Source: a virus
Length of the DNA: 31,277 nt
Reading direction: 5' to 3' (one strand)
IMG/VR virus record: IMGVR_UViG_3300031565_000226
Span: 1-31,277 of that record
Position numbers and translations under genes: made by a program. Position 1 is the stretch's first letter, and the number at the start of each line of letters is the position of its first letter. Below the pieces are notes generated by a model. That model saw nothing but the letters and a program-made list of their open reading frames with translations. It was not told the DNA's origin and did not search any database. This document shows, piece by piece, positions 3 to 23,413 of the stretch.

Positions 3-1043
3 AGCGCACTGGATGAACTGGAAGACATAGATATAGGTGACCCGGACGCGCTCAAGCGCATATTGAAACGGTTCATCGCACGGGACAGATCCCTGAAAGC
101 TGGCACGTATCTTGCTACACATGTAGAGGACGATGACTTTGACCCGAGCATACCATACGCTATGCTGGAGGAGGCGGTCAACGCATCGGTAGTGCTGGAC
201 GCGGACGTGATAGATTTACATACTGCTCAGTCTCCGGCAGACCCCACTCGCACAGGCGTCATAGGGTTTGGCTTTTCGGACGAACTTGACAAACTACTAG
301 ACGGAGGTACCGCTAATGGGGAGCTTTCCTTATATGTTGCACCATCAGGCGTCGGCAAAACTTCTTTCCTATGGGGGAGTCTGGCCTACGCCGCCTCAAG
401 GGGCCGCGCTTGCTTGGGAATTACACTGGAGATCAACAGTCGCAAATGTATCCAACGGGTTGACCAATGGCTCACCGGCATGGATAAGTACGAACTGGCA
501 GCCAATCCGTTTGCTGCCCTCAAGAAGCGAGAAGGACTAGCAGGCAAAGTCTGGATCAAGGACTGGACTGCGCGGCAGCCTACAGTCGATGACATCCGTG
601 CGCTGATCCTTCAGATGCGGCAGCGCGGGCAGGCTGTGGACTATGTGATGATAGACTACATGGAGCTTGTGCGCCCAGACCATTTCAACATCAACCAAGT
701 CCGTCACGGGTACTCACAGATAGCCAAGTCCCTGCGCGTCATGAGCAAGGCCCTGGATGTCCCGGTCGTGTCCGCGTGGCAAACCAACAGAGGTGGTGCA
801 GACAAGCATGTGCTGTCTAAGACCGACGTTGGGGAGGACTGGGGAGTTATTAAGATTGCCGATATTGCGCTCGGCCTAAACCAGAACGCCGAGGAGCTGC
901 AGCAGAAGATTATGAGAGTCAATATTCTAAAGCAGCGGGAGTCTACGGCTAGGAGCCTAGTCACCATGCGCTGTGATCTTGATAGGATGGTTATCAAGCG
1001 TCCAGATGTAATTACGGACCCAGAAGTGGAGGAAGTGGCATGA
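3..1043 (+). CDS. DnaB-like replicative DNA helicase, 5'-partial
   Basis: The reading frame is open from the window edge (base 3) and has no upstream stop, so the true start lies outside. An internal TTG at 63 is only the first start-like codon in view. Counting residues from that TTG, a RecA-fold ATPase core is clear: Walker A GVGKT at 96-100, the DnaB-type TLEIN with a likely catalytic Glu near 123, Walker B VMIDY near 195-199, and a VPVVSAWQTNRGG strand near 233-245. DnaB-family proteins with this core are hexameric 5'-3' helicases that unwind DNA at the fork; here it should serve phage DNA replication in the cytoplasm. The stop overlaps the next start as ATGA, implying translational coupling. 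A RadA/KaiC-type ATPase is the main alternative, but a DnaB-type helicase fits the motifs and phage context better. Confidence 0.85.
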   Translation, partial: SALDELEDIDIGDPDALKRILKRFIARDRSLKAGTYLATHVEDDDFDPSIPYAMLEEAVNASVVLDADVIDLHTAQSPADPTRTGVIGFGFSDELDKLLDGGTANGELSLYVAPSGVGKTSFLWGSLAYAASRGRACLGITLEINSRKCIQRVDQWLTGMDKYELAANPFAALKKREGLAGKVWIKDWTARQPTVDDIRALILQMRQRGQAVDYVMIDYMELVRPDHFNINQVRHGYSQIAKSLRVMSKALDVPVVSAWQTNRGGADKHVLSKTDVGEDWGVIKIADIALGLNQNAEELQQKIMRVNILKQRESTARSLVTMRCDLDRMVIKRPDVITDPEVEEVA

Positions 1044-1369
1044 GTGAGTGGAAAGAAATCACGAAGATGCTGGGAAAGTGGAAGTTGCTGCACGACAGGA
1101 TAGCGATCTTCCCGGACAAACCAAAGGACACTTACGGGAATGGCTTGATCGCACGGCCCATCATCGCGCAGAATGCGCCCCTTTCTGGGGTAGTGGTGGC
1201 CCTGGGAACGGACAAGGAGAACTTGCCAGATGGGCTGAAGCTTGGGCAACGGGTGTTCTTTAACAAGTACAACATTGTAGAGTTTCAGTTCACGACTGAC
1301 GATAACACAGATTTTGTGGTGACTGTGCTGCACTCGCGGGATCTGTACTGGTTTGAGGATTCAAAATGA
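1040..1369 (+). CDS. GroES-like co-chaperonin (phage-encoded)
   Basis: The 109-residue protein follows the GroES pattern in order. It has LHDRIAIFP at 17-25, a mobile-loop region with a GLIA tripeptide-like segment at 35-38 (the counterpart of the GroES GIVL contact with GroEL), GVVVALG at 50-56, LKLGQRVFFNKY at 66-77, and a C-terminal VLHSRDLYWFE strand resembling the GroES end. GroES forms a heptameric lid on GroEL. T4 gp31 shows that a phage lid can replace the host one to fold the capsid protein. No GroEL-type gene is in the window, so the partner would be the host chaperonin. The protein is about 12 residues longer than E. coli GroES, with additions at the N-terminus and near 82-92. It is coupled by ATGA overlaps to both neighbours in the replication operon. 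Confidence 0.8.
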   Translation: MSEWKEITKMLGKWKLLHDRIAIFPDKPKDTYGNGLIARPIIAQNAPLSGVVVALGTDKENLPDGLKLGQRVFFNKYNIVEFQFTTDDNTDFVVTVLHSRDLYWFEDSK

Positions 1370-2004: not shown

Positions 2005-2370
2005 CTACTTGACCTTAACCATCTCGCGCCCAACGTAGACACCAAGAGCAAACAAGCCCACCTTAAACACAGTAGAATTGCCCAGCTTCTCGATAAAGCT
2101 GGGTTTTTCTACGTCATTTCGCTGCATTAATATGCTGATGGTATTGGCCTGAATAGCTGTGTCGCGCTCTAACAGTTCAATTTCTCCAGTAAAAAGTACC
2201 AGATCCTGAGCAAGGAGGAGCGCAGCAGCTTCATAGTCACCATTAGTTTTGCCGAGCGCATGGTCAACCAGTGCCTCCGCGTCTTGTGCGTATACGTTCG
2301 CGCACATCATCAACGCGCTCAACAATAGGCTTGCTGCGCTTAACCTCAAGCTCTTTCTCAGCCACATCAT
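2005..2370 (-). CDS. Exported small protein, outer-spanin candidate
   Basis: The 121-residue product has a signal peptide (basic MMWLRKSLRLS, hydrophobic core, probable VYA cleavage near residue 28) and a second hydrophobic stretch near the C-terminus (about 98-116). It starts inside the 3' end of the upstream 76-aa gene in another frame (107-bp overlap) with a GGAGG 9 nt before the ATG, so it is a genuine overlapping gene. The arrangement matches Rz/Rz1 spanin pairs, which fuse inner and outer membranes at lysis. However, the Cys in SALMMC is not preceded by the usual small residue of a lipobox, the protein is not proline-rich, and a C-terminal hydrophobic segment is unusual for Rz1. It could instead be another lysis accessory protein. 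A rightward terminator is buried in its sequence. Confidence 0.5.
   Translation of the reverse strand: MMWLRKSLRLSAASLLLSALMMCANVYAQDAEALVDHALGKTNGDYEAAALLLAQDLVLFTGEIELLERDTAIQANTISILMQRNDVEKPSFIEKLGNSTVFKVGLFALGVYVGREMVKVK
2081..2108 (+). terminator. Intrinsic terminator of the rightward replication operon, inside the last late gene
   Basis: CCCAGCTT (2081-2088), a 7-nt loop and AAGCTGGG (2096-2103) form a perfect 8-bp stem followed directly by TTTTT (2104-2108). The T-run exists only on the plus strand, so it should stop transcripts coming from the resolvase gene, which ends at 1974. It is embedded antisense in the coding sequence of the 2005-2370 gene. Confidence 0.8.
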
Positions 2371-2494
2371 TTAACAGATCCTCCTCCCGCTCCAGCCCTT
2401 CCAGCTTGGCCTTCTTAAAGCCCCACCTGCGGCCTGCAAAGTAAATAGAGATGAGGCCCAAGACTGCTAGGATTGCCCCCCATATCTTCTTCAT
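2264..2494 (-). CDS. Small membrane protein, inner-spanin candidate
   Basis: The 76-residue protein has an N-terminal membrane segment (about residues 5-20, IWGAILAVLGLISIYFAG). A highly charged helix of about 50 residues follows, likely coiled coil, with a basic C-terminus. Type II single-span proteins with a periplasmic coiled coil are typical inner-membrane spanins (Rz). The gene begins at an ATGA overlap with the stop of the exported 357-aa gene, and its 3' end encodes the start of the next gene in a second frame, the classical overlapping spanin layout. No enzymatic motif is visible. The family itself cannot be recognised from sequence, so the call rests on topology, overlap and the nearby endolysin. 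Confidence 0.5.
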   Translation of the reverse strand: MKKIWGAILAVLGLISIYFAGRRWGFKKAKLEGLEREEDLLNDVAEKELEVKRSKPIVERVDDVRERIRTRRGGTG

Positions 2495-3564
2495 TCTACA
2501 TTCACCTGCAGACTTTCAGGGTAGGACATGGTTTGTGTTTGGCTACTGCCGATTGTTACTGGTCCCCATCCAGTTGTGTTATGGTTCCCGCTGGAGTCTA
2601 TAACAAAGATATAAGCAGTTTGTCCTGCGGTAAATGTTCCAACATTAAAGGTGAAGGTTAAGCTGCCATCAACCCAGGTGCCATAGGGAATTTGGATCTC
2701 TCGGTGCGTACAATTCGCAAAGCTTGATTCGTTTCCAATTTCTATACGAGCGCGAGTGATATCAATATAAACTTCATCCCAATAGCCCCAGGCCGTAACG
2801 GGGCCATACTGATCGCCCATATATGAAGAAATGAGTACATGAGTAAAGCAGCAGTTAAAGTCAAATGAGGCGTCGGCATGATTTCCGATAAGGGCGTTAT
2901 TCCTGGAGGTATACCAGAACCCACCTCCAGAAGCATGTTTGCCGTTGAACTCCCATCGCTCCCACCCCTGGCCGTATGGTATACGGTTATCTGTTAGATT
3001 AAGGGCCCCGTTGCTGCCATCCATTTCCTGGCCGCTACAGTTTTTTACGTTGCCCCACATATACGGGCCATAGGGTGGATTTGGACCCCAGCCATTTCTA
3101 AAGACGGGGCCATTGGCTGTCCACACAGCATCAGCGATATTGATGAACTTCATGCTGTGAACATTATCTACTCCCTGAATCGTCCCCCTGAAATACCCAG
3201 AGAAATATATCTCTCCGCCATTGCATCCGTTCGGAAAGTTTATAGCATCTAAAACAGAGTCTCCAACTGGTCCCTGTTTCGACGATAGGTGGCCGGAAAC
3301 TCTTGGGGAATCACTGGAATATGTTGGCCAGACACCGTCATAATCTATGAAGGTGTAGAATCTTGAATCGTGTATTTCTTGGCCGTTTGTTCCGTTCTCC
3401 CAATCTCTATAAAGCCACGGCTCCGCTGGAGTTTTGACCCCAAAATCTGTACCAATCAACTGTACTTGCTCGCCTTGGACATATACTCCGGTAACACTTG
3501 TTATGTTGGGTACCCCGTAACACAGCACAGGCAACAACGCGAAAAGTAATATTAGCCTCTTCAT
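2491..3564 (-). CDS. Exported IPT/jelly-roll protein, copy A
   Basis: The 357-residue protein opens with a signal peptide (MKRLILLFALLPVLCYG). An IPT/TIG-like start follows (ITSVTGVYVQGEQVQLIGTDFG, the I..G....G..I.I.G..FG pattern), then a long aromatic- and Gly-rich middle. The last 97 residues begin with YWDEVYIDI, a strand typical of concanavalin-like jelly-roll folds, and then form an Ig-like beta sandwich. The first 20 and the last 97 residues closely match the 375-aa gene at 4611-5738, while the middles differ. This is the pattern of proteins that swap a binding domain between constant ends. It probably binds glycans at the cell envelope or outside; no catalytic motif is seen. It lies between the holin candidate and the spanin pair, joined by ATGA overlaps on both sides, a strange place for a 1-kb fibre-type gene. 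Confidence 0.6.
   Translation of the reverse strand: MKRLILLFALLPVLCYGVPNITSVTGVYVQGEQVQLIGTDFGVKTPAEPWLYRDWENGTNGQEIHDSRFYTFIDYDGVWPTYSSDSPRVSGHLSSKQGPVGDSVLDAINFPNGCNGGEIYFSGYFRGTIQGVDNVHSMKFINIADAVWTANGPVFRNGWGPNPPYGPYMWGNVKNCSGQEMDGSNGALNLTDNRIPYGQGWERWEFNGKHASGGGFWYTSRNNALIGNHADASFDFNCCFTHVLISSYMGDQYGPVTAWGYWDEVYIDITRARIEIGNESSFANCTHREIQIPYGTWVDGSLTFTFNVGTFTAGQTAYIFVIDSSGNHNTTGWGPVTIGSSQTQTMSYPESLQVNVE
2498..2533. repeat. 36-bp repeat, 3' end of copy A
   Basis: This matches 4618-4653 in 33 of 36 bases, in the same orientation. It encodes the conserved C-terminal residues of the two paralogous exported proteins. Confidence 0.8.
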
Positions 3565-3565
3565 T
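3530..3565. repeat. 36-bp repeat, 5' end of copy A
   Basis: This matches 5704-5739 in 33 of 36 bases, in the same orientation. It covers the start codon and signal-peptide coding region of the two paralogous exported genes. Confidence 0.8.
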
Positions 3566-3767
3566 TTTCGTCCACACCGCTCTTAGACTTCTGCACTTTA
3601 TCAAAGGCAATTCCGCCAAAGTGTACGGCACTGACACCCAGCAAGGCAATTTGTGCGTTGGCCGAAATGCCTCCACCGGAAAACTTGTTTACGATTTCCA
3701 CAGTAAACACTCCGAGAATAGCTACGAGGTAGGCGACTAGCCTACGGGAGCCGATCATATTAGTCAT
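3561..3767 (-). CDS. Two-span membrane protein, holin candidate
   Basis: The 68-residue protein has two hydrophobic segments (about 9-28 and 37-55) separated by a Gly/Ser/Asn turn, short termini, and a charged tail (DKVQKSKSGVDEK). This is the usual form of a class II holin, which would make lesions in the inner membrane and release the endolysin to the periplasm. The endolysin at 4054-4365 has no signal sequence and so needs such a protein. The gene overlaps both neighbours by ATGA. Holins share little sequence, so the call rests on size, topology and position. The single-span 97-aa protein upstream is the alternative holin, in which case this one could be an antiholin. Confidence 0.6.
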   Translation of the reverse strand: MTNMIGSRRLVAYLVAILGVFTVEIVNKFSGGGISANAQIALLGVSAVHFGGIAFDKVQKSKSGVDEK

Positions 3768-4057
3768 TTTGTGTCACCTTTTTCTTGTTCTTCCTGAAGC
3801 CACTGTTTATAATTCTCTTCCAAAGTGTGCTTGTCTGAATTAATCCTTACTTCCCGCTGTAAGACAGTAAGAATGTCTGTCGTCAGTTCTAGCTGTGTTG
3901 AAAGAGCCAAGTCATTAAACTCACGTTTAAACTGCTCATCTTTAAGCTTAAATTCTATACTGGTTTTCCAAGACATGGCTGCAACGATAAACGTCAGGGC
4001 TAAAATTATATGGCTTATGCTTATCTCTGAGTTGAACTTTAACTTTGGTGCTGTCAT
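3764..4057 (-). CDS. Single-span membrane protein of the lysis cluster
   Basis: The 97-residue protein has a short N-terminal tail, one membrane segment (about 15-31, SHIILALTFIVAAMSW) and a long charged helix (about 33-97) likely to form a coiled coil. It lies between endolysin and holin candidates with ATGA overlaps on both sides. Possible roles are a one-span holin or pinholin, an antiholin, or an inner-membrane spanin. Its topology resembles that of the 76-aa protein at 2264-2494, so the cluster carries two proteins of the spanin-like form. No motif decides between these roles. Confidence 0.45.
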   Translation of the reverse strand: MTAPKLKFNSEISISHIILALTFIVAAMSWKTSIEFKLKDEQFKREFNDLALSTQLELTTDILTVLQREVRINSDKHTLEENYKQWLQEEQEKGDTK

Positions 4058-4365
4058 TTGACCTCTCCATGCTCAAGACTATAGTGATTACCGTCATCAA
4101 ACCTCCCACCCCACGTTCCGCCTATACTCTCCCAGTACTCTCCCAATGGTTTGTGGTCCTCAGTTGTTGTGAGATACTGCCCGTCTTTGAATAGATTAAG
4201 ATCAATTGCCAATCGCTTCCTGTGCAGGGAGTTTACGTGCCCATAGCCACAGCCTGAAGGGCGATAGGCGTCTCCAAATGTAAGTCGATATCCGAGTTGC
4301 TCTGCGTGCAGGATCAGCAGAGCCACCATGTGGACAAGCTTACTCTGTTTCTCCCGGAGGATCAT
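4054..4365 (-). CDS. M15-family peptidase endolysin
   Basis: The 103-residue protein matches the zinc peptidase M15 pattern. It has a GDAYRP segment at 31-36, SLHRKRLAIDLNL at 46-58 with zinc ligands His48 and Asp55, and FDDGNHY at 89-95 with a likely catalytic Asp91 and zinc ligand His94. M15 phage enzymes cut peptide bonds in the peptidoglycan stem (L-Ala-D-Glu or D-Ala-D-Ala type). The length is near that of a bare catalytic domain, with no cell-wall-binding domain, as is common in phages of Gram-negative hosts. No signal peptide or SAR segment is visible, so export depends on a holin. The 5' end overlaps the previous gene by 26 bp and the stop overlaps the next start. Confidence 0.85.
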   Translation of the reverse strand: MILREKQSKLVHMVALLILHAEQLGYRLTFGDAYRPSGCGYGHVNSLHRKRLAIDLNLFKDGQYLTTTEDHKPLGEYWESIGGTWGGRFDDGNHYSLEHGEVK

Positions 4366-4606
4366 AAAATACCATCCTGTCTGTTATCGCCCCAATAGGA
4401 ATGGCATGCTCAGAAGCCCAGGTGTCTGCCCGGTAGTCATATCCAGCACCAATTTTAAGGTACGTAGAGGTCTCTTCTACAATGTGGCCACACGAATAGC
4501 ATTCAACAGGCTGTAACAACCTATTATAATCACTGCCCCATTGATCGTCCTTGTTTATGTCTTCCCACCACACTCCAATAAGAGGGGCGTTGAGCGGTGT
4601 TGGCAT
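4340..4606 (-). CDS. Conserved-looking small protein with a CxxC motif, unknown function
   Basis: The product is 88 residues from the ATG at 4606, which has GGAG 7 nt upstream. An in-frame ATG at 4621 would add five residues but its only SD-like sequence is too close. The sequence is rich in Trp, Tyr and acidic residues and holds one CYSC pair near residue 36, perhaps half of a metal knuckle. No signal peptide or membrane span is seen. It lies between the exported 375-aa gene, whose stop at 4611 is just upstream, and the endolysin gene, which it overlaps. I do not recognise the family. Its position suggests a lysis-associated or fibre-associated role, but nothing in the sequence proves either. 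Confidence 0.6.
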   Translation of the reverse strand: MPTPLNAPLIGVWWEDINKDDQWGSDYNRLLQPVECYSCGHIVEETSTYLKIGAGYDYRADTWASEHAIPIGAITDRMVFYDPPGETE

Positions 4607-4610
4607 GATG

Positions 4611-5738
4611 TTACTCCACATTCACCTGCAGGTTTTCGGGGTAGGACATGGTTGGTTCTTGGCCGGAGCCTACAGTAACACGTACACCTTCATCTGGAGG
4701 ATTATTGTCAGCATCAATGACAAATATATAGGCATGTTGTCCGGGTGTAAATGTGCCCACATTGACCGTGAAAGTTAACTGCCCGTCTGTCCAGGTATCT
4801 CTTGGTATCTGAATTTCTCTGTTATTGCAACTAGTATAACTTATATTATCCCCCATCTCGACCCTGGCCCATGTATCATCTACATATACATCGTCATAAT
4901 AAAGTTTAACCGTATGTCCAGCCGGGACATTTGAAAGATAAGCACCTATCATAAACCGATTTAGTGTTAGACCGCCAGAACATTCCATGTGAGACCCATT
5001 TATCGGATAAGTATCACCAGATTGAAAAAAGTCATTATAATTTATTGTTGTTAAAAGATATGCGTCTGGAGTGTCTAGGGAGCCTTTATCAAACACAAAC
5101 TGGAAGTCATTCCATTGGTGGTTATTGAATGTAGCAGTATATTGTGTTCGTTCGCCGGAAAACCCGCAATCAAGAACTTCGTATCTAGCCCATCGGTTAT
5201 TCCCACTTCCAGTATTGCCATCAAACTCAGCTACAAGTTGTACTTCTGGGTCATCACTGTAGTTCCCGGTTGATGGGTACCAATACATCAACTTTACTTT
5301 GGATATCTCGCCGGGTGGAGGAGGATAGTTGGTTCCCCAGTCAAACCAAATTTTTCCTTTAACAAAACATTTTTGGTCTGTTATAATCGCGCCGTCTGTG
5401 CGCATTGTTTGGAAATCATATCCATCAAGTGAACGCTCACCACAGAATTGACCCACGGGCGTTCCGTCACGCGTTTCATTAACAGAATATTCTGGCCAAC
5501 AGTAAGTATTTGCACTATAAGTAATATACCACCCATCCTCGTCCAGAAGCTCACCAACAGTTCCTCCGTTAAAGTCAGCCCATCGCTTTGGAGCGACAGG
5601 ATTTTTTATCCCAAACCCAGATCCAGTTATAGTGATGCTTTCTCCGTCAACAATGCTGCCAATGACAGGAGCATCAATAACAGGCACTCCGTAACAAAGT
5701 GCTGGCAACAACACGAAAAGTAATATTAGCTTTTTCAT
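4611..5738 (-). CDS. Exported IPT/jelly-roll protein, copy B
   Basis: The 375-residue protein starts with a signal peptide nearly identical to copy A (MKKLILLFVLLPALCYG). An IPT-like segment follows (SIVDGESITITGSGFGIKNP, about 28-47). The central region differs from copy A. The shared C-terminal block starts near residue 280 with YYDDVYVDDTWARVEMG and ends in an Ig-like sandwich. The DDVYVDD strand and the surrounding Gly/aromatic pattern suggest a concanavalin-like lectin or polysaccharide-binding jelly roll. It should be exported through Sec, so it is either a periplasmic or extracellular glycan-binding protein or a fibre with an atypical leader. It is coupled by ATGA to the Fn3 gene upstream. 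With copy A it flanks the endolysin and holin genes. Confidence 0.6.
   Translation of the reverse strand: MKKLILLFVLLPALCYGVPVIDAPVIGSIVDGESITITGSGFGIKNPVAPKRWADFNGGTVGELLDEDGWYITYSANTYCWPEYSVNETRDGTPVGQFCGERSLDGYDFQTMRTDGAIITDQKCFVKGKIWFDWGTNYPPPPGEISKVKLMYWYPSTGNYSDDPEVQLVAEFDGNTGSGNNRWARYEVLDCGFSGERTQYTATFNNHQWNDFQFVFDKGSLDTPDAYLLTTINYNDFFQSGDTYPINGSHMECSGGLTLNRFMIGAYLSNVPAGHTVKLYYDDVYVDDTWARVEMGDNISYTSCNNREIQIPRDTWTDGQLTFTVNVGTFTPGQHAYIFVIDADNNPPDEGVRVTVGSGQEPTMSYPENLQVNVE
4618..4653. repeat. 36-bp repeat, 3' end of copy B
   Basis: This is the partner of 2498-2533 (33 of 36 bases identical, direct orientation, about 2.1 kb apart). Recombination between the two would remove the endolysin and holin genes. 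Confidence 0.8.
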
Positions 5739-5739
5739 T
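5704..5739. repeat. 36-bp repeat, 5' end of copy B
   Basis: This is the partner of 3530-3565 (33 of 36 bases identical, direct orientation). Confidence 0.8.
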
Positions 5740-8080
5740 CTACCTCAATCTCCAGGTATGGGCGGTACATTTTCTCTTGTTCAGATCCTTGTGTCCCGTT
5801 ATCGTAGAAGTTCACGTATACCTGGCCAGGATTTGTGGAGGACAGAGACCGGAACGTGAAGTAAAACAGCAGTGGCTTGCCCGCATCGATCTGCGCCTGC
5901 ACCAATTCCGTAACATCAAGGTTGGTGAAGGTGCCGGGTCCAGGTAGATTTTCGGCGGCAAAGTCTGCGTACAACCCGAACCAATCCCGGTTGTCGTTCC
6001 AGGATGTTTCCGGGTCCACGGACCATGCAGTAGTGGTGCTTTGTGCCGAGTTTACGTAACTTATGTCATGTGCTATGCCCGCGCCTGCGGTCACCCACTC
6101 ATCTAAGACATCGCTCCCGGTGCAGTTGTACACCTTCAGCGTGTCTATATTGGAATAGGTTTGGTTGAGGGGCCTGTTGGCCGAAGCTACGTGGAGCACT
6201 GCGCTGACTACAGTTTTGCCCGCAAACAGAGTGCCGTCCCCAAAGCGGAAGAATGGATTCGACCTGGACGTTCCTCCCCCGCTGCTGAAGCTGAGACATC
6301 CCGGCGCGTACTGCGGGAGACTTATGTGATAAGAGGACATCGGCAGGGCGTAGGCCGGGTCGTACTCCGTGCTGTTATCGTTGCCCCATACCACAGTAGC
6401 GTTGGTCCTGTCCGAAGTGCGCCTGTCCATGGTGGCCATGAAGTTGTCTACGTGGACCCAGTGTCCAGTCGGCTCGTACAGTGTGGAGTCCAGCGCTGAG
6501 GTGTAGTTGCTGAGGATGAATACCCCGGACACAGCGTCGGGGTCTTTTCTTCCGCCTTGAAAATCCACAAGTGTTAGACCACCACTATCATTAACATTTT
6601 GTGTGGCAGCGTTATCTTTAAAGTCCCACGGGCTTGACATGGATAATAGGGCGTCAGTAGACAGACCTGTTTGCCATTCATAAAGCTGCACAAATTTAAA
6701 AGTAGAGTCGCCTACTGTACTTTCCCAGTCATCTCCACTGTTAGGGGTTACCCAAGTTAGCCCTCCTCCATTATAAGCTACCTGTATTCTTGAGATTGTG
6801 GGCTCATTTGTGATTATTGATGCAACAACCTTAACATCTGCTATGTTTGTAGTGTCTGTTGTGGCACCAAACATGTGAGCTTTAGAGAGGTCCAACGCAG
6901 GTTCTGTTACATCTGGGTCAGGAATATCTTGTGCAATATAAATATCTGAGACAGAGTTTGTCCTTACTGTGGCTGTGCCATCGCTGGCGTGCACTTCGTA
7001 GAATATTTCTACTGCTTGGTTGTAGTAGGGCTCATCAATGTCGTAAGTCTCTGGAGACTGGTCGGGGCCTCGGTAGCCTCGCAGCTTATATCGTTCCACC
7101 CCTCGTCTGGGTGGGACCAGGGCATGGGCATTATCTAAGGAATGATAAAATGTAGTGCTGTCTCCTGTAAGAGTATTGGACACCACCTCCCAGTTTCCGC
7201 TGCGATTGTGCTCACGCCATAACCAAACGGAGGTCGGCAGCGGCAGTCCTGAGTCATCCCAATCCCACGTAATTGTGATAGTGCTGTCGGCATCCCATAC
7301 TGGTGCTGGGATAGGAGTCTGGTAATTTACCCAGTCTTGCCAGCTGTATCTGTTGGCTGTAACAGGATGTCTGGCGAAATCCCAGTCCGCGAAAAATGTA
7401 CTTCCAGTGTCGGCAGGAACGTGATAGAGTGGGTTGGAATTATAGTCCGAAGTTATGCCCTCATATCCAGCCCATGAGATTAGTTTAGTCCAGCAATCCG
7501 TATTGACTGATACGCGGACTTCAACATTAAGACTGTCCGGGTCGCCGCGTCGAGAGATAAATACGTCCGCGCTGTCAACTTGGGCGGTCAAAGATTTCGT
7601 GAAGTACACCGGCTTGTCCGCAGGAAGCGGATCAGTTGTTTCATCCACTTGGTTACTGTGGGCGGACTCGTTTCCGTCCCAATCTACTGCGGTGATCTCA
7701 AACAAATACCGAGTGGATGGTTCCAAGCCAGCGTTTGTATAGGTTTGCTCTGGCCCTGGTTGGTGATACCACTGACTGACCCAAACAAGGCCACTCCCAC
7801 CGTAAACATCTCGGTAGACCTTGTAAAATGCTATATCGTCATCTGTATTGCTGTCCCAAGTGAGGCACATCACTGTCGCTCCGCATGGAGCAGCATTAAG
7901 TTGTGTGGGCACAGCCGGTGGAGTCGCATCGACAGGCGGCGTGTAAGTCATATCGGATAGCCCGCCTATGCGGACGGGAGCATCCGGAACGCCTGGATGC
8001 GTGCCGATAAAGTACGGCCCGGAGCCCATCAATAGGAGGCTTGTGGCAAGAAACAGTGTGAATAACAGTATTCTTTTCAT
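5735..8080 (-). CDS. Exported Fn3/DNRLRE-like multidomain protein
   Basis: The 781-residue protein begins with a signal peptide (MKRILLFTLFLATSLLLMGSG). A fibronectin type III domain covers about 53-148, with the typical VPTQL, LTWDSNTDDDIAFYKVYRD and YLFEITAVDWDGNES strands. Several beta-rich domains without clear identity follow, one of them Fn3-like with TITWDWDDSG. The last 180 residues or so resemble a DNRLRE-type carbohydrate-associated domain: FRFGDGTLFAGKTVVSAVLHV, then LDVTELVQAQIDAGKPLLFYF, ending YRPYLEIEVE. No catalytic signature is seen. Such architecture is common in secreted polysaccharide-active proteins of environmental bacteria and rare in virions. An AGGA about 7 nt before the ATG supports the start. 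It is coupled by ATGA to copy B downstream. Confidence 0.65.
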   Translation of the reverse strand: MKRILLFTLFLATSLLLMGSGPYFIGTHPGVPDAPVRIGGLSDMTYTPPVDATPPAVPTQLNAAPCGATVMCLTWDSNTDDDIAFYKVYRDVYGGSGLVWVSQWYHQPGPEQTYTNAGLEPSTRYLFEITAVDWDGNESAHSNQVDETTDPLPADKPVYFTKSLTAQVDSADVFISRRGDPDSLNVEVRVSVNTDCWTKLISWAGYEGITSDYNSNPLYHVPADTGSTFFADWDFARHPVTANRYSWQDWVNYQTPIPAPVWDADSTITITWDWDDSGLPLPTSVWLWREHNRSGNWEVVSNTLTGDSTTFYHSLDNAHALVPPRRGVERYKLRGYRGPDQSPETYDIDEPYYNQAVEIFYEVHASDGTATVRTNSVSDIYIAQDIPDPDVTEPALDLSKAHMFGATTDTTNIADVKVVASIITNEPTISRIQVAYNGGGLTWVTPNSGDDWESTVGDSTFKFVQLYEWQTGLSTDALLSMSSPWDFKDNAATQNVNDSGGLTLVDFQGGRKDPDAVSGVFILSNYTSALDSTLYEPTGHWVHVDNFMATMDRRTSDRTNATVVWGNDNSTEYDPAYALPMSSYHISLPQYAPGCLSFSSGGGTSRSNPFFRFGDGTLFAGKTVVSAVLHVASANRPLNQTYSNIDTLKVYNCTGSDVLDEWVTAGAGIAHDISYVNSAQSTTTAWSVDPETSWNDNRDWFGLYADFAAENLPGPGTFTNLDVTELVQAQIDAGKPLLFYFTFRSLSSTNPGQVYVNFYDNGTQGSEQEKMYRPYLEIEVE

Positions 8081-8090
8081 CTTTTATCCT

Positions 8091-11000
8091 TTATTCCGTC
8101 GCCCTCTTCCAGCCGCCGCCCCGCCGTAGGGTGTCGCCTGCGGCGGTGTATACGATTAAAGGCCATGGCTGGTTATTAGATCCCCAAGTGGCTACGTGCC
8201 ATATAAGCTTTGCGGTAACTACCCCGTGTTCTGGACTTTGAAAGGTGCAGCTAAGTGTGTCGCCGGTTGAGCTAAACACCGGATCAGTCAGCCTTTCACC
8301 TAGATTTAGGTGTTCGGTCGGGATCGTTGGGATTTTGACGGATGGCAATGCTTCGGTATAGCTGGACACGCCGAGTCCCATGCTGGCAAGAATCTCAGAG
8401 GTCGCACCTGCATTATATACCACATTAGTTTGATAGAGGGTAATTGGATATCGCGTTCTATTGGCGCCCCATGCCATGTGCCGTTGGGGGCGGTTGATTA
8501 GGGACCATAATGTCGCGCCGTGCGTTGTGGTCGGATATATTTCGGTATATCTCTCATACATCCCGCCATCGAAGTATGCGATAGTCCCGCCGGGGGTTGT
8601 GCCTGTTCCGGCGTCGTTGTTAGCCACGAATAGGAACGTACTGTCGCCGTAGGCCGCACGGAAAAGTCCGGGGATGCTTTTAACAACCTCCTGATATCTT
8701 TCTTCCTCAGTCAGACCTGTATCCCCCCCAACTGGGTCCGTCCAAAATGGATCAGTTCCAAAGGCTATTCCGTCTTCGTCCATGTCCAGGTTAGCTACCC
8801 CTTGGTAAACAACACTGGGATAATCGTCACCACTGAGCCAATCCCCGAAAACGCCAACATAACCAAGGCCGGGGTCACGCTCTTTCATCCTGTCGGTATA
8901 GAATATTGCCAGGGTGTCATAAAGCCCTGGGGCAGTGGGGTTCCATAGGTAATTGCCTTGTCTGTCGTTATGTATCGCTTTGTCCCCACTTGCCGTCCAC
9001 ATGAACCAATCAAGCTTGCCGTCAGTGCCGCCCGGGGTCCCGTCCGGGGGGCCATCAGTGTGCCTAGCGGTCATTTCCCACAAGTCTTGATAAATGCCGC
9101 CTGCCGTCACCCAGGTTTGTCCAACCCCATACATCCAGGCGTATACCAGGGCGATTATATCTGGATTGCGTGTCCGAAGGGCCGTGACAAATCCGTCGTA
9201 TTTATCTTTTTGTAAATAGTTGTGTTCAGTTATCCAGACATCGAACACCGCTATGGAATCATATTCGGCGGTGGTTATCGGGTCAGCGCATACATAATTT
9301 GAATTTGCCCCATAAATAGGCAGGTTCAACTCCGGAATAGCTGGATCCGCCGCCGATTCCGGCGTAGCGTCTACCTGGGCGCTTGGTATTGATTCGTTCC
9401 CGTCGGTGTCAATGGCCGTTATGTGGTAATAATAGGTACTGTCAGCGACAAGGCCGGTGTCCTGAAACCACGGCAATGTATGCGTATCTACTACCCAAAA
9501 TGGATCGGTCCCTGGGTCAATGGACCTATAAATATTATAATAGGATAGGTCGTCCTCTGTATTTTGTGTCCATGTCACAGTATTATAATACCCGGATCCA
9601 AACTCGGTGCCGTTGACCCCATTGGCCGCCGCCCCGGTCACCTGATCCGGCGGAACCAGATAATCGCGGCTGAGTCCTCTAATAAATCTGCCGTTCATGC
9701 CGTCTAGTAAATACCAAACTTCTTCGTCGGCCCTGAACTTAAAAGAATCCTCTTGCGCGTAAGCCGCCGGTGTTTGCACGGGTGATGCCCATTGCTTCAT
9801 CCAGCGGGCGGCCTCACTGTAGAACATATAGGGGTCGCCATAGGAATCTATAACATCGAGTACTGCCGAAAACTCTTCATGCTCCATACCTCCCGCAGGA
9901 TATCCTGGAAATGATTTTGTCTCATGGACAAACAAAGAAAATACACCGCGCCCCTGGGCTCTGATGTTTTCGATATAACTTTTGGTTTTCAGGGTCGTCA
10001 TTTCTAAATCAACCGGATCAGTCGGATCACCAACAAGGTCAGTAACACTGAAGAGATTTCCTGTGAACATCAAATTCCTAGCATCTAGCGCCCTAGTCTG
10101 CCGGATAAAGCCGTATGTCGTGTCCGAATCTGCTGGGCGACGCCCCACGGTGTAATGAGTCATCCCACCGCTACTAGGGTCTACTAGATTTCTTGTTACT
10201 GACGGCCCTCTATACGCGGCATAATCGTGATAAGCCAGGGCCTTGGCCGCTGTCGGGCCGTAGGGATCGACGGCATAAAGCAGGGTCTTGCCCCAATAAG
10301 GGTCGGCCCTCATGTCTACGCCGAGGGAGTCGGCCACATAATACATCCACTCAGGATCAACTTCAAAGAGCAACTTATCCCACTGGGTGGCATTGGCCGA
10401 AAGGAGGGTAGGGTACATCCCGTCCGTGTACTCGCCAATGACGGTGCTATCTCCGAAATCCTCCAGCGGTGTATGGTTGAAGGTATGGTTAGCAAACTCT
10501 ATGATCCCGGCCTGTCTGGCTGACAGGATGTCGCCGGGAGATATATAACCTACGTCCTGTTCTGTTAGATTTTCCGTCATGCCAAGAGTGTACTTGCCCT
10601 TGCCCCTGGCCGTGAACGTATCAATCCATGCGGTGTTGATTCCTACATTGCCGTCATCGGTTTGCAATACTACGGCAAAATCCAAGCCATTTGGGAAAGG
10701 TGCCTGATAAAGGCGATCAACGTACTGGACGACAATATAGGGGCAATATTTATCATAGGTTGCATGGCTGGTATTTTGCCAGGAATAAAAGTTCATAGCA
10801 TTATTGGACGCGCCCCAGTCGTGTAAAGAAACGCAAATTCCATTATTGACTGCCCCATTTACTGCGGCCTGGAAGCAATTAAACAAATCAAGATCATATT
10901 CAGTATATTGCGGCAGGGAACTCCCTGCACTGGGGAGCCCCGACCAGTCGGAATAATCGCCAACATCCCAGAACCATTCACGATCATTCCACTCGGGAGC

Positions 11001-11954
11001 CCATGGCCCCGCATCGGCGGCTGGATATCCCTCTGTATTAAGTCCGGCAACCTGTACCCGCCAAGTAGCATGAGCAAACCTTGTGTGCCCTGAAGATGGA
11101 GCCGTTATTCCTACGGACCCATACCAGAGGGAGTCGCCAGGAATGGTCATAAGGGTGGCACACATGGAGTCCTGATTGGCCGTATAACTTGTGGCGGAAT
11201 AAATTCTTTTGGCTGCGGCCATGGTCAATTGACTGTTGGCCGGAACCCACCGGCTTATATCTAGGTACATTAATTCGTGCCGAGATCCCAGTGCGCCTCC
11301 AACAACATTTTTCTTATTCATTTCCCATCGGTAGTCTTGTCCATCTGGCGCGTATAACACTTGTCTAACCCAGCCGTTAGCATCTATGGTAGAATACTTT
11401 ACATAAGGCGAGGTGGTATCTATCATGGACCACGCGAAGTCGTTGGCCGCGTCCGAGAGGTCTACAACAGAATCCGCCAGCGCGATCCAAGCGTCGAACT
11501 CTGAGTGGTCATGAGACTCTACTGTCGGATAGGCCGTAAAAACGATAGTTACCGTATCGCCGGTCCATACTGATGGGATATCCGGAGGTGGTGGCCAAAC
11601 TTCGCTTGGTCCACCGTACCAATACAGGTCCAATGTAGTAGGAGTCACATCCAGCTTTGTAACATATACCATGTTACATTTTATATTGACCGGCACAGAG
11701 AATCCATCCCGCACGGTAACAACGGAATCTCCGTTGGCCAAGTAGACTCTTTCATTTTCTCGCCAGAAACTTGTGGTCAAGTCGCCACCAGTGCTAACAA
11801 TATTTATTTTCAGCCGATCATCTATCAAGTTGTTCATCCGAATTAATTGCCCGCCAGTATGCAAGGCCCCAGACCATGCCCCAGGATTCCGCCGGTCAGC
11901 GAAGGCCGGAAGGGCCAACACCATCAACATGAATGTCAGTATAAATTTATTCAT
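8091..11954 (-). CDS. Exported polysaccharide deacetylase-Fn3-glycosidase-like fusion
   Basis: From the ATG at 11954 the protein has 1287 residues and starts with a clean signal peptide ending AFA|D near residue 19. An upstream in-frame ATG at 12011 would bury this leader, so 11954 is preferred. In order: a module of about 100 residues shared with the next upstream gene (NPGA 23-26, SFWR 62-65, YWY 111-113); a DNRLRE-like region to about 420; a NodB/CE4 polysaccharide deacetylase region with a TDDG motif near 432-435 and HTFNH near 490 (canonical DD and HxxxH metal ligands); an Fn3 domain at about 768-865; a TIM-barrel-like region at about 870-1210 resembling uncharacterised glycoside hydrolases; and a final beta domain. 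CE4 enzymes remove N- or O-acetyl groups from glycans. The likely target is an envelope, capsule or biofilm polysaccharide. Which domains are active cannot be settled by eye. Confidence 0.7.
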   Translation of the reverse strand: MNKFILTFMLMVLALPAFADRRNPGAWSGALHTGGQLIRMNNLIDDRLKINIVSTGGDLTTSFWRENERVYLANGDSVVTVRDGFSVPVNIKCNMVYVTKLDVTPTTLDLYWYGGPSEVWPPPPDIPSVWTGDTVTIVFTAYPTVESHDHSEFDAWIALADSVVDLSDAANDFAWSMIDTTSPYVKYSTIDANGWVRQVLYAPDGQDYRWEMNKKNVVGGALGSRHELMYLDISRWVPANSQLTMAAAKRIYSATSYTANQDSMCATLMTIPGDSLWYGSVGITAPSSGHTRFAHATWRVQVAGLNTEGYPAADAGPWAPEWNDREWFWDVGDYSDWSGLPSAGSSLPQYTEYDLDLFNCFQAAVNGAVNNGICVSLHDWGASNNAMNFYSWQNTSHATYDKYCPYIVVQYVDRLYQAPFPNGLDFAVVLQTDDGNVGINTAWIDTFTARGKGKYTLGMTENLTEQDVGYISPGDILSARQAGIIEFANHTFNHTPLEDFGDSTVIGEYTDGMYPTLLSANATQWDKLLFEVDPEWMYYVADSLGVDMRADPYWGKTLLYAVDPYGPTAAKALAYHDYAAYRGPSVTRNLVDPSSGGMTHYTVGRRPADSDTTYGFIRQTRALDARNLMFTGNLFSVTDLVGDPTDPVDLEMTTLKTKSYIENIRAQGRGVFSLFVHETKSFPGYPAGGMEHEEFSAVLDVIDSYGDPYMFYSEAARWMKQWASPVQTPAAYAQEDSFKFRADEEVWYLLDGMNGRFIRGLSRDYLVPPDQVTGAAANGVNGTEFGSGYYNTVTWTQNTEDDLSYYNIYRSIDPGTDPFWVVDTHTLPWFQDTGLVADSTYYYHITAIDTDGNESIPSAQVDATPESAADPAIPELNLPIYGANSNYVCADPITTAEYDSIAVFDVWITEHNYLQKDKYDGFVTALRTRNPDIIALVYAWMYGVGQTWVTAGGIYQDLWEMTARHTDGPPDGTPGGTDGKLDWFMWTASGDKAIHNDRQGNYLWNPTAPGLYDTLAIFYTDRMKERDPGLGYVGVFGDWLSGDDYPSVVYQGVANLDMDEDGIAFGTDPFWTDPVGGDTGLTEEERYQEVVKSIPGLFRAAYGDSTFLFVANNDAGTGTTPGGTIAYFDGGMYERYTEIYPTTTHGATLWSLINRPQRHMAWGANRTRYPITLYQTNVVYNAGATSEILASMGLGVSSYTEALPSVKIPTIPTEHLNLGERLTDPVFSSTGDTLSCTFQSPEHGVVTAKLIWHVATWGSNNQPWPLIVYTAAGDTLRRGGGWKRATE

Positions 11955-12324
11955 ACCAATACGCATCCACAAGAACGGTGTTGTCGTAGCCCTTGAGTGA
12001 GATGAGATCACACTTGATCGTGACGGGATATATCAAGTTCATCGGGATCGACACAACGGTATCCCCATCTGCAGTATTGTTGAGCGAGACCCTTTTCCAC
12101 GTCCCAGACCCTGCATCCCAGCGCCAGAAGGACGCATAGAATCGACCCTCTGTACTCACCAAAAATATGTCGCGAGACATAGTTGGCTGCGTGGTCCAGT
12201 TTGCATTGAGCAGAATTTGGGAGCCGCTGATGGGCGCATCTATTGATAGCGCCCCTGGGTTGGACTGTCCGATAGCCAAGGAGGCCGTGAGGATCATCAG
12301 GCCAATGAGTAGAAACTTCTTCAT
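11947..12324 (-). CDS. Exported single-module protein related to the N-terminus of the deacetylase fusion
   Basis: The 125-residue protein has a signal peptide with probable cleavage AIG|QSNPGA near residue 19. One beta-rich module follows, aligning with residues 20-115 of the next gene: NPGA (22-25), VSTEG (56-60), SFWR (65-68), DTVVSI (88-93), PVTIKC (100-105) and YWY (122-124). The match includes the leader position, so the small gene looks like a free copy of the large protein's N-terminal module. The family is not recognised; a binding or assembly role is possible. Its start forms TAATG with the stop of the 1297-aa gene, and its 3' end overlaps the next start by 8 bp, so the three are translationally linked. 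Confidence 0.65.
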   Translation of the reverse strand: MKKFLLIGLMILTASLAIGQSNPGALSIDAPISGSQILLNANWTTQPTMSRDIFLVSTEGRFYASFWRWDAGSGTWKRVSLNNTADGDTVVSIPMNLIYPVTIKCDLISLKGYDNTVLVDAYWYE

Positions 12325-18332: not shown

Positions 18333-18713
18333 TCAGAGTACGATAACTGACTGGGCGTATGGACCATCCAATGCTCCCAGCTTGCTGTCAATTCTAAGCG
18401 CCTCCCGGTTATCATAATGCACACAAGACCTTATTTGCTTGACGCCCATCTTCTTTAACACATAACATCCTCTGATGATTAATCGTGCGCCCAAACCAGA
18501 TCCCATGTATTTCGGGGTCACCGCCAAGTAATCCGCGAAGGCTATGTTGCCCGACCGCGCTGCCCACACGACCCCCTGTACTCCCTCGTCATTCTCCGCC
18601 AGAAGAACGATCCCGCCTATCTCTGTAAAATCCACCTGATGATAATATCCAGTAGATGCTACGCAAGCGGAACACGCCTCCAAATCTTCCGGCTTTGCGA
18701 TTCTGTATTGCAT
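18333..18713 (-). CDS. GNAT-family acetyltransferase
   Basis: The 126-residue protein shows the GNAT core. Motif A is LAVTPKYMGSGLGARLI (about 63-79), with the acetyl-CoA pyrophosphate loop of the R/QxxGxG/A type here as YMGSGLG. It is preceded by the beta strand VQGVVWAARSGNIAFADYLAV and followed by NREALRIDSKLGA (motif B region). GNAT enzymes transfer an acetyl group from acetyl-CoA to an amine. Small GNAT genes occur in the structural modules of many podoviruses, where the substrate is usually unknown. Its 5' end is joined to the upstream stop as TAATG. Possible targets are a virion protein or a host protein; nothing in the sequence decides. Confidence 0.8.
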   Translation of the reverse strand: MQYRIAKPEDLEACSACVASTGYYHQVDFTEIGGIVLLAENDEGVQGVVWAARSGNIAFADYLAVTPKYMGSGLGARLIIRGCYVLKKMGVKQIRSCVHYDNREALRIDSKLGALDGPYAQSVIVL

Positions 18714-19072
18714 TACAGTATATATGTATGATTCCCAGATGCCTGTACTGGGGACGCATAAGCTGTGATGGACGACGCAGCATAGTCGTTAGTGCTGTCA
18801 ACATACAGCAAGTTACTGTAGCCGTAGGACACTAAAAACTCTCCACTGCCAATATTGACTATATTTAGATCATAAGCATAGACAGTACCAACAACCGTTG
18901 TGTATGTCTGAAGTGTAACTGCTCCAACAACCAAAGATGTTGAGGTACTTGCAGCTTTGGCGTGAATTCGTAAAGACACGGAGTCCCCTACAGCGGGCAG
19001 CTTCGGAAGGTCTATCGTTGCTTCTGCAACATATTCGACCCGTGGTGTGGTTTCAGATAATTTTGTTCTCAT
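18713..19072 (-). CDS. Small beta-rich structural protein, unknown
   Basis: The 119-residue protein is rich in Val, Thr, Ser and Tyr with alternating patterns typical of beta sheet. It has no signal peptide, membrane span or Cys. It lies between the tailspike and the GNAT gene, joined to both by TAATG stop/start overlaps, so it is co-translated with virion genes. A small tail accessory or spike-associated protein is plausible. The family is not recognised. Confidence 0.5.
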   Translation of the reverse strand: MRTKLSETTPRVEYVAEATIDLPKLPAVGDSVSLRIHAKAASTSTSLVVGAVTLQTYTTVVGTVYAYDLNIVNIGSGEFLVSYGYSNLLYVDSTNDYAASSITAYASPVQASGNHTYIL

Positions 19073-20262
19073 TAAAATCCCCAGTTCAAGCCGACCACAT
19101 CTGGGTCAGTTGCAGTTACTGTCACGCCTGCTATGCAGGTATTACCCACGAAGGTCGAAATCCAGGCGGCATCAATCTCTACGGCAGCCTCGAAGATATT
19201 GCTATTGATTGTGTTAGCAGTGCCGGAGACCCTGGTGACTGCACCCCGGAAACTGTTGCCGCAGAACATGCTTGCAGTAGTGTCAATCTCTAAGGTGCTA
19301 TTAAATGTATTCCCCGTAATTGTACTGCGCTGTACTGCAATAGTAGCTGGATCTAAGATAGTATTCCCAGTAATAGCACTATTGATATAAGATCCCAGTT
19401 CCATACAATTTCCAGCCGTCACGTCCATGACGTTACCCGTTATGGATAACTGTCCGAAACTAGAGCTAGTCGTAGAGCGGTCACTGTAGATACAGGGCGC
19501 ATCCCCACCAGAGAAGGAGTTATTTGATATTACTACTTCATGACAGGCTGTGTCAGCGTCTCCACCAAGTTCAATATTGTTCCCATCCACAGAATCAAAG
19601 GTGTTGCCGTCGACAACCGAATTCACTAGGTTGAGTGCTAAGATAGCTTGCTCACTACAGAAGGCAAAGAAATTGTTAATGACGCGGGCATTCGCCGTCT
19701 GCTCTCCGCTACCACTAAACGAGATGCCTGGGCCAAGGATAGCCGAGAATGTGTTGTTATCAAATGCAGCGCCTTGGTTATCGTTCACAACTATACATGG
19801 GATGAGCGTTGTACCGCCAGTGATCTGCACGCCAGTCATGCGAAAATTGCTGCCCGTGCATTTTATTCCATACAGTGTAGCTGTCCCGCTGATTGTCAAG
19901 ATACTTCTACCGGAAGATCCAAGAATGCTTACATTGTTGGCAGTGATTAGCTCATTAGAAGCAACTGGGACACTCTCAGGATCAATGACAATCGTTCCGC
20001 CACCAGCAGAGTTGACCTCGGCAATTGCTTCCTGGAGAGTGAACGAATCATTGACATGATACTGCTCAAAGAATCCAGCAATATTAGTAATGCTGTACCC
20101 ATTCATGTCAATGTCGCCCTGCGCTACCAGGGGCCAGACAAGACTGGATGCAGCGATATTGCCACCAGCTATTTCAGCGCTTACTGATTCTCCAATAGAA
20201 TTAAAGTCCTCGGCAGCGGGCACTTCATCGTCTACAAAGACATGAATATTAAGTAATGGCAT
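19072..20262 (-). CDS. Tailspike with right-handed parallel beta-helix
   Basis: The 396-residue protein has an N-terminal head or virion-binding part (about 1-70) with the fibre-type segment GDIDMNGYSITNI. A long array of short rungs rich in Asn, Gly, Thr and Val follows, including VINNFF, VVDGNTF, VISNNSF, ITGNVM, ITGNTI and ITGNTF. Regular N-x-F/I ladders of this sort mark pectate-lyase-type beta-helices, used by phage tailspikes to bind and often cut host surface polysaccharides. Catalytic residues cannot be assigned by eye. No signal peptide is present, in contrast to the exported proteins further left. It follows the nozzle gene with a 2-nt gap. Confidence 0.75.
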   Translation of the reverse strand: MPLLNIHVFVDDEVPAAEDFNSIGESVSAEIAGGNIAASSLVWPLVAQGDIDMNGYSITNIAGFFEQYHVNDSFTLQEAIAEVNSAGGGTIVIDPESVPVASNELITANNVSILGSSGRSILTISGTATLYGIKCTGSNFRMTGVQITGGTTLIPCIVVNDNQGAAFDNNTFSAILGPGISFSGSGEQTANARVINNFFAFCSEQAILALNLVNSVVDGNTFDSVDGNNIELGGDADTACHEVVISNNSFSGGDAPCIYSDRSTTSSSFGQLSITGNVMDVTAGNCMELGSYINSAITGNTILDPATIAVQRSTITGNTFNSTLEIDTTASMFCGNSFRGAVTRVSGTANTINSNIFEAAVEIDAAWISTFVGNTCIAGVTVTATDPDVVGLNWGF

Positions 20263-22502: not shown

Positions 22503-23413
22503 TACCGTCTCCTGAACGCGCCGTGAAGCGCACCCTGGGTTCTGATGCGCATGCGGTCCCGAGAGTTGTTGGGGTTGGCCCCGACTCTCAGAGCGTTCTG
22601 CAGCTTATCCGTAGAGGTTTGCACTGCGTTAGCGGAGTTCTCTACGTCACGCTGTAACATTGCGATACAACTATCCGCGATGTATAGGATGTATTTAACC
22701 GGGTATAAAATAGGATCAGTGCTAGTGGTTAGAGTAGGATGCTTCATTTGATATTCATACGAGATAGTACAGTTCTTGTCAAAAATACGGTCGAAATGTA
22801 CGAGCGGGTAGCCAGCAGAATCAAGCCCGTGAATTGTGAAATACCGCGCCTCTTCCTGTACTAGACCGAAACCATCGTTGAATTTCTCGGTGCGCATTGC
22901 TACTGGATCGAGTTCTTCGAGTTCTGTCCCCGTCCCCATATTAAGCATTTTCCCTAGCAGCAACCGGTCAAAGTCTGCGGGCAAAGAGTAAGTGTCTTGT
23001 CCCATGACAATGGTATCTCCAGAAGAACTTTCATCCCGCCATGCAGTATTGAACCCACAGATGCGCACAGTTGAAACTGTTGTAATTTTATAGATTGGCT
23101 TAAAGGCCCCTACCTGCACGATTTTTCCGACACTGTCTAGGATGCTAAAGAAGGGGTCAGCCTCATTTTCTAGTGTAACGCCTGCCGCACCAAAAGTAGT
23201 TGTTGCAAATGGGTCAGAAGTCTTCGGGGCATTTATAGCTAGATACCCAGTTTTGCGCAATTCTGGCCAGTTCTTGTCGTTCTGCATTGACGCGATAATA
23301 GTGTTAGTAACTTGAAGGATCTTTAGCCCTTCTGGTGTGGGGGCAGACACATCAGTTTCAGTGCCCCAACCGAGTTGACTGGATACAAGATTGACAAATT
23401 CCAGTGCTTCCAT
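22502..23413 (-). CDS. Head-tail adaptor (gp11/gp4-like)
   Basis: The 303-residue protein starts with a helical region (EALEFVNLVSSQLGW, then LKILQVTNTIIASMQNDKNWPELRK). It carries the YSLPADFDRLL motif near residue 147, a signature seen in many podovirus adaptor or tail-tube A proteins. The last third is helical and basic. Adaptors sit in twelve copies under the portal and receive the nozzle. Position between portal and nozzle genes, with TAATG junctions on both sides, supports the role. It is longer than T7 gp11 (196 aa). Confidence 0.65.
   Translation of the reverse strand: MEALEFVNLVSSQLGWGTETDVSAPTPEGLKILQVTNTIIASMQNDKNWPELRKTGYLAINAPKTSDPFATTTFGAAGVTLENEADPFFSILDSVGKIVQVGAFKPIYKITTVSTVRICGFNTAWRDESSSGDTIVMGQDTYSLPADFDRLLLGKMLNMGTGTELEELDPVAMRTEKFNDGFGLVQEEARYFTIHGLDSAGYPLVHFDRIFDKNCTISYEYQMKHPTLTTSTDPILYPVKYILYIADSCIAMLQRDVENSANAVQTSTDKLQNALRVGANPNNSRDRMRIRTQGALHGAFRRR

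Follow-up and report, generated by a model that had tools for sequence, protein, structure and literature searches.

It is assumed that tailed phages make their fibres, and attach them, in the cytoplasm. The receptor-masking phage proteins Llp (of T5) and Cor are small lipoproteins that act on outer-membrane proteins. Here we analyse the whole of the 31,277-bp IMG/VR virus record IMGVR_UViG_3300031565_000226 (the window), in which five late genes encode tail-fibre-type proteins headed by putative Sec leaders. The encoded proteins resemble known tail fibres and tailspikes with depolymerase or deacetylase activity in their slot (that of T7 gp17), their modularity, their conserved N-terminal segments and their glycan-type domains. 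However, the known fibres and tailspikes have no Sec leader. We read the block as a set of late, Sec-exported, glycan-directed modular proteins that would do their work outside the cytoplasm, at lysis or earlier, probably by masking or stripping host glycans, and we give this reading about an even chance. The proposed role is like that of Llp and Cor, exported phage products that hide a receptor from virions, but the block proteins are large, of glycan type and without a clear lipobox.

A near precedent is found in the MAT fibres of Bdellovibrio, which are exported phage-like fibres (PMC10769870). By description rather than by sequence, their layout is analogous to that of the block proteins, a signal peptide being followed by a conserved N-terminal β domain; they are, however, encoded by the predatory bacterium's own genome and the block by a phage. 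Tgl of Kayvirus is a secreted phage lytic enzyme with an AXA-type Sec leader, encoded near the lysis genes, and its export has been shown (PMC7150955). Tgl is a single cell-wall lytic enzyme, whereas the block comprises a set of fibre-type glycan proteins and a leader-less endolysin. The GH32 levan enzymes of Bacillus phages SP10, phiNIT1 and SPG24 are without the signal peptide that other family members have (PMC4595243). Like the predicted products of the block they are free phage enzymes, predicted to be directed against host exopolysaccharide, but they carry no leader. The tail-fibre-like surface adhesin PblB of streptococcal prophages has a predicted signal peptide in one (pneumococcal) strain (PMC4508584); unlike the block, it belongs to a Gram-positive prophage, its release is tied to phage-induced permeabilisation and it is not a glycan-enzyme set. 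Phage hypervariable proteins are said to be without the signal peptides of their bacterial counterparts, and this absence has been used as a sign of phage origin (PMC6199706). Within the open PubMed Central literature, which leaves subscription papers and preprints largely outside, no report of Sec leaders on tailed-phage tail-fibre-type proteins as a class was found.

An earlier note on this DNA had listed five late genes, starting at 12324, 11954, 8080, 5738 and 3564, and had assigned classical signal peptides to their products. A check of the open reading frames (ORFs) recovered all five starts, on the minus strand. The predicted proteins (125, 1287, 781, 375 and 357 amino acids (aa); Table 1) each open with an n-region containing K/R, followed by a hydrophobic core free of charges and a cleavage motif of small residues (e.g. 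PAFA↓DRR), features of Sec/signal peptidase I-type leaders. Leaders were called not by SignalP but by a rule written for this analysis, which requires a net-positive n-region, an uncharged core of 8-12 residues with a mean Kyte-Doolittle value of at least 1.9, and small residues at -3/-1 soon after the core. The rule flagged all five proteins. Applied to known exported proteins, it called OmpA and LamB and missed PhoA. In a control set made up of T7, λ, phiKMV, P-SSP7, HXX_Dennis and the first 50 kb of PS6, it called 7 of 237 ORFs (3%), namely Rz of T7, Rz, Lom and RexB of λ, a 103-aa ORF of PS6 and two HXX_Dennis antisense ORFs. No virion protein is among these calls. Against this per-ORF background five calls out of five are not due to chance, even with the 357- and 375-aa genes being paralogues. 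Elsewhere in the window, the only hits were the 121-aa gene at 2005-2370 and three short membrane-type lysis genes (2264, 3561, 3764). No head, tail, internal or replication gene of the window was called at its proper start, and one virion/replication-type gene was called only when an internal start was chosen. By sequence, the block leaders qualify as those of Sec/signal peptidase I preproteins, with an unclear cleavage site in the 781-aa protein.

Of the five leaders, that of the 781-aa protein is the weakest, with a 24-residue uncharged run. Such a long hydrophobic run without a clear site, and the location of the proteins in the fibre slot, would be compatible with leaders that are uncleaved hydrophobic N-terminal anchors of ordinary virion fibres, used for example in trimer formation or tail attachment. 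We consider this highly unlikely, as AxA-type sites recur (PAFA↓D, AFA↓Q, AWA↓Q, ALA↓V) together with short cores and positive n-regions, another block includes a Tat-like leader, and the control virion proteins show nothing similar.

A single late region occupies the minus strand of the window. Its order runs from the virion head, tail and internal genes to the 1297-aa gp16-like gene, and then to the leader block and the lysis cassette. The slot after the gp16-like gene, which had been noted for the window, also holds in the relatives L014, L016 and L021. The earlier note had called the five genes consecutive or near-consecutive and placed them before lysis. However, they are not all consecutive or ahead of lysis: gene 2491-3564 sits within the lysis cassette, after the M15 endolysin (4054-4365) and the holin-like genes and ahead of the spanins. 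Genes overlap by a few bases at 12324/12324, 11954/11947 and 5738/5735. From these junctions, joint translation of the leader set and the virion and lysis genes is probable.

Portal searches returned two near-identical contigs and relatives at 69%, 52% and about 50% identity; the gp16-like proteins of the relatives are 45%, 28% and 24% identical to that of the window. In L014, L016 and L021, the gene after the gp16-like gene encodes a leader protein of 125-129 aa with the sites PAFA↓Q, AWA↓Q and SALA↓V. Identity to the 125-aa protein of the window is 38% in L014, 24% in L016 and 18% in L021, the last counterpart being assigned mainly by position and by its likeness to the L014 protein (1 of 1000 shuffles as good). 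All three have further leader genes downstream of it. That of L014 encodes a 733-aa protein with a weak BNR match; those of L016 encode a deacetylase-type protein of 620 aa and a PKD/IPT protein of 451 aa; and the L021 product is interrupted by the contig end. The same layout is observed in MW202637, a far relative with a complete circular genome and a portal 21% identical to that of the window. There, a 111-aa leader gene directly follows a 1598-aa gene, additional leader genes lie downstream, and the leader of a 177-aa protein stands immediately ahead of a fibre-like N-terminus. In the same genome (L088), a 489-aa late gene with a lipoprotein-like leader (LLLGAMGC) lies directly after the 111-aa leader gene, at 33494-34963 (+); some block products may be membrane-anchored. 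Single-sequence IMG/VR searches with the 375- and 1287-aa proteins returned no relatives, alignments being needed, and the 1287-, 781- and 375-aa proteins had no tblastn match among 50,697 phage records.

Several modules are shared within and between blocks. The 125-aa domain reappears as the N-terminal domain of the 1287-aa protein (E 9e-11; 0 of 1000 shuffles as good for the mature parts alone), and the 357- and 375-aa proteins are 33% identical over 407 columns (E 4e-49). At its mature N-terminus (PYFIGTHPGVPDAPVRIGGL), the 781-aa protein resembles the mature 733-aa protein of L014 (0 of 1000 shuffles as good), although the bodies of the two are unrelated. One leader-bearing 2011-aa protein of L071 aligns to residues 173-1283 of the 1287-aa protein (24% identity, E 2e-42, QTDDG kept) and additionally carries an IPT-family domain. 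In L066, a single leader protein fuses a β-helix region, like that of the L021 protein, to an IPT-family domain. Receptor-binding proteins typically show such shuffling of modules.

The glycan-type nature of the set, proposed in the earlier note, is supported, but its domain labels fared unevenly. Fn3 and, on structural models, the jelly rolls stood; deacetylase and IPT were found only below threshold; the DNRLRE and glycosidase labels had no match in the profile libraries searched, and an NCBIfam scan gave no useful match. Fn3 in the 781-aa protein scores 24.9 bits with PF00041 against a cut-off of 25 (E 2.5e-5) and matches solved Fn3 domains by phmmer (1.6e-5); Fn3 is also supported for the 1287-aa protein. 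An Fn3 region of the window matches the tail protein family phrog_1696 (6.6e-8), the sole match to a tail-family profile among the block proteins. The deacetylase region of the 1287-aa protein scores 17.8 bits with PF01522, under the curated cut-off of 23.1 (E 0.003-0.02), and contains the NodB metal motifs DD and HxxxH (QTDDG at 432, HTFNH at 490). These catalytic motifs are retained in the window, L016 and L071. The region would therefore be described as resembling NodB-type deacetylases rather than as a member by the Pfam cut-off. IPT/TIG in the 375-aa protein scores 14.9 bits with PF01833, under the curated cut-off of 20.9 (E 0.027). The model of the 125-aa protein (predicted local distance difference test, pLDDT, 82.5) is a confident generic jelly roll whose best structural match has a Z of 10.5 at 9% identity, a modelled likeness of fold that carries no indication of function. 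That of the 375-aa protein is of low confidence (pLDDT 61.6) and resembles lectin (concanavalin) and alginate/ulvan-lyase PL7/PL14/PL18-type folds; among its matches are binding domains from unrelated proteins and, at rank 40, a cyanopodophage tailspike. An L016 homologue matches Polysacc_lyase_14 at E 0.0013, under the cut-off.

The leader-plus-domain block was also sought in metagenomic phage genomes, as the earlier note had proposed, and it recurs. An IMG/VR search with an alignment of the IPT/jelly-roll family, to which the 375- and 357-aa proteins belong, returned 22 loci. Leader-bearing members are present in about 13 lineages: the window clade and L023, L024/25, L026, L063, L064, L066, L067, L069, L071, L072, L075 and L077. 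These contigs share essentially no gene besides the block proteins at E 1e-5. Their leader genes often form runs of 2-5 adjoining lysis genes, the lysis labels on these contigs being drawn from size, position and sequence reading rather than from profiles. Four leader genes are followed by a holin-like and an M15-like gene in L077, and four to five precede holin-like genes in L026 and L023. The L069 block combines Sec leaders with one Tat-like RREFIKK leader. A LamG-like 265-aa protein in this block (6322-7119, +) has a Tat-like signal (NRREFIKKTYQIGGLAALYSLGL), unusual in a phage gene; an IMG/VR scan with the L069 fibre found no contig other than L069 itself. In L075, two leader paralogues (6485-6880 and 9591-10010, +; 49% identical) flank other leader genes and sit among head-tail morphogenesis genes, not by lysis genes.

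The recurrence bears on the main rival explanation, in which the block proteins would be virion fibres that use Sec to reach the periplasm, stay there and are joined to the tail once the cell has lysed; they would thereby escape titration by, and action on, glycan precursors in the cell. We regard this as possible but doubtful. The T7 gp17-like slot and the conserved N-terminal segments on unrelated bodies agree with it, as do leaders directly ahead of fibre-like N-termini in MW202637 and in L072, whose leader protein has a CBM_5_12-like module. The L024 leader protein, with collagen repeats, matches PHROG tail-fibre families at 1e-16, and the leader proteins of L026 and L023 have repeats in common with phage fibre genes. 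Matching modules occur without a leader in HXX_Dennis, PfAn1, ctNMl277 and Mesorhizobium phage Lo5R7ANS, and those of HXX_Dennis and StM171 are annotated tail fibre genes. The earlier note had offered two mechanisms, secreted enzymes and binders or exported fibres joined to virions outside, and leaders on tail-fibre modules in other phages make the second less far-fetched than before. A broader form, which we put forward only tentatively, is that several unrelated tailed-phage lineages export real receptor-binding fibres via Sec, perhaps Tat, and finish virion assembly outside the cytoplasm, as the cell lyses or later. However, we know of no tailed phage that assembles its fibres from the periplasm, and the window has a leader-less β-helix fibre candidate (19072-20262), whose match in L021 is confined to the N-terminal 148 residues. 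Moreover, several block proteins are enzyme-like, and cells too have the IPT family, as a family of secreted proteins. Glycan masking is favoured over exported fibres for the first two of these reasons, and because the set resembles glycan binders and modifiers.

In cells, the IPT family is a widespread leader-bearing, secreted-type family of Elusimicrobia, Desulfobacterota, candidate-phylum bacteria and archaea, with some members beside polysaccharide genes or in polysaccharide clusters; the modules have evidently been exchanged between phages and cells. Long tandem runs of leader genes, of the IPT family and others, are present in L029 and L041 (Candidatus Moraniibacteriota contigs); their products may be surface proteins of the cell, or the runs may belong to a mobile region that escaped detection. 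The cellular distribution would suit captured host secreted genes carried as cargo for auxiliary polymer degradation, with no role in release, superinfection or the virion. This is decidedly unlikely: in several lineages the block lies within the late virion-lysis unit, it persists in divergent relatives, fibre modules form part of it, and late expression would leave little time for a metabolic benefit. Recent host-gene capture as the sole origin was likewise rejected, since divergent relatives retain the 125-aa gene and blocks of this type also contain fibre modules.

For glycan masking or stripping, the block proteins would be made alongside the virion and lysis proteins and would pass the host Sec pathway, their leaders being cleaved by signal peptidase I. 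Once exported, they would work in the periplasm, on the cell surface and in the burst, where they would bind host surface glycans, deacetylate them or cut them. The benefit would most likely be receptor masking or destruction, with fewer progeny trapped on the capsule, exopolysaccharide and debris of the dying cell, and less superinfection. This reading is supported by the five leaders out of five against a 3% background, by the leader of the 125-aa gene, kept in its slot through divergence to 18-38% identity, by the layout of MW202637, by the leader-bearing IPT relatives in about 13 lineages, by the Tat-like leader in the L069 block, by the NodB motifs and the L071 enzyme-IPT fusion, and by the leader-bearing cellular members. 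A kept leader points either to work outside the cytoplasm before lysis, which glycan masking or stripping fits, or to separation from cytoplasmic glycan precursors, which exported fibres fit. Several points weigh against glycan masking. The leaders, their conservation, the slot, the shared modules, the recurrence and the leaders on fibre modules in unrelated phages are read directly from the genes; translocation, cleavage, enzymatic activity, final location and benefit are what we infer from them. The leader-less GH32 enzymes of SP10-type phages suggest that release at lysis needs no leader. The cysteine pattern typical of periplasmic proteins is not found, and the 781-aa leader has no clear cleavage site. 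Phage members of the IPT family without a leader occur in L065, L076, L078 and L079/80, so export is not essential to the module. Finally, the N-terminal segments of fibre type hint that the proteins attach to some structure, perhaps the virion. Oxidative folding was rejected as a reason for export, there being no bias to even cysteine numbers (18 even and 21 odd among leader proteins, compared to 54 and 70 in the background).

Table 1. Features of the window, with the basis of each assignment.
Feature	Position	Strand	Basis or remarks
125-aa jelly-roll protein	11947..12324	-	Sec-type leader ~12268-12324; directly after gp16-like gene
1287-aa protein	8091..11954	-	Leader ~11898-11954, N-domain like 125-aa protein, NodB-type deacetylase region (resemblance), Fn3, C-terminal region
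781-aa protein	5735..8080	-	Leader with weak cleavage site, short conserved N-terminal segment, Fn3, C-terminal region
375-aa IPT/jelly-roll protein	4611..5738	-	Leader ~5688-5738
357-aa paralogue of 375-aa protein	2491..3564	-	Leader ~3514-3564; within lysis cassette
M15-type endolysin without leader	4054..4365	-	Pfam PF13539 7.4e-7, PHROG endolysin 3.7e-5
Two short single-transmembrane genes, 68 and 97 aa	3561..4057	-	Holin-like from size and position
Rz-like i-spanin	2264..2494	-	PHROG 1026, E 0.0026
121-aa exported-type protein (predicted)	2005..2370	-	Leader call and C-terminal hydrophobic segment; o-spanin position
gp16-like gene, 1297 aa	12324..16217	-	Named from size and position only; marks slot
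β-helix protein without leader, alternative fibre/spike candidate	19072..20262	-	PF13229 1.1e-8
Portal	23413-25698	-	PHROG profile
Terminase large subunit	25692-27200	-	PHROG profile
Major head protein	27270-28193	-	PHROG profile

Within the lysis cassette, the 68- and 97-aa single-transmembrane genes had no profile match in the PHROG search. The 121-aa product is a probable lysis accessory, and by position and sequence inspection L016 has a leader-bearing gene of similar size at 9318-9659. Pfam and PHROG scans gave no cell-wall hydrolase match among the leader proteins, the M15 endolysin being a separate gene without leader. Amid the virion genes lies a GNAT-type acetyltransferase-like gene (18333-18713, -) that all relatives keep (64/40/44%); a similar gene adjoins internal virion genes in Pseudomonas phage PfAn1 and phiKMV. 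A GroES-like co-chaperonin gene, recognised by inspection, is located at 1040-1369 (+), flanked by a DnaB-like helicase gene (63-1043) and a resolvase-like gene (1366-1974), and the same trio is found in L016 (9656-11862).

Leader-bearing, fibre-type glycan genes by lysis genes in about 13 otherwise unrelated lineages conflict with the picture of fibres confined to the cytoplasm. They suggest that several kinds of phage may export part of their surface-recognition kit ahead of host burst. If the proteins are exported, phages would either alter the host surface from inside before lysis or build their virions partly outside the cytoplasm; the second, if true, would be the more surprising. In either case, receptor-binding and depolymerase genes would have to be recognised differently in metagenomes, and views on superinfection and release would change.

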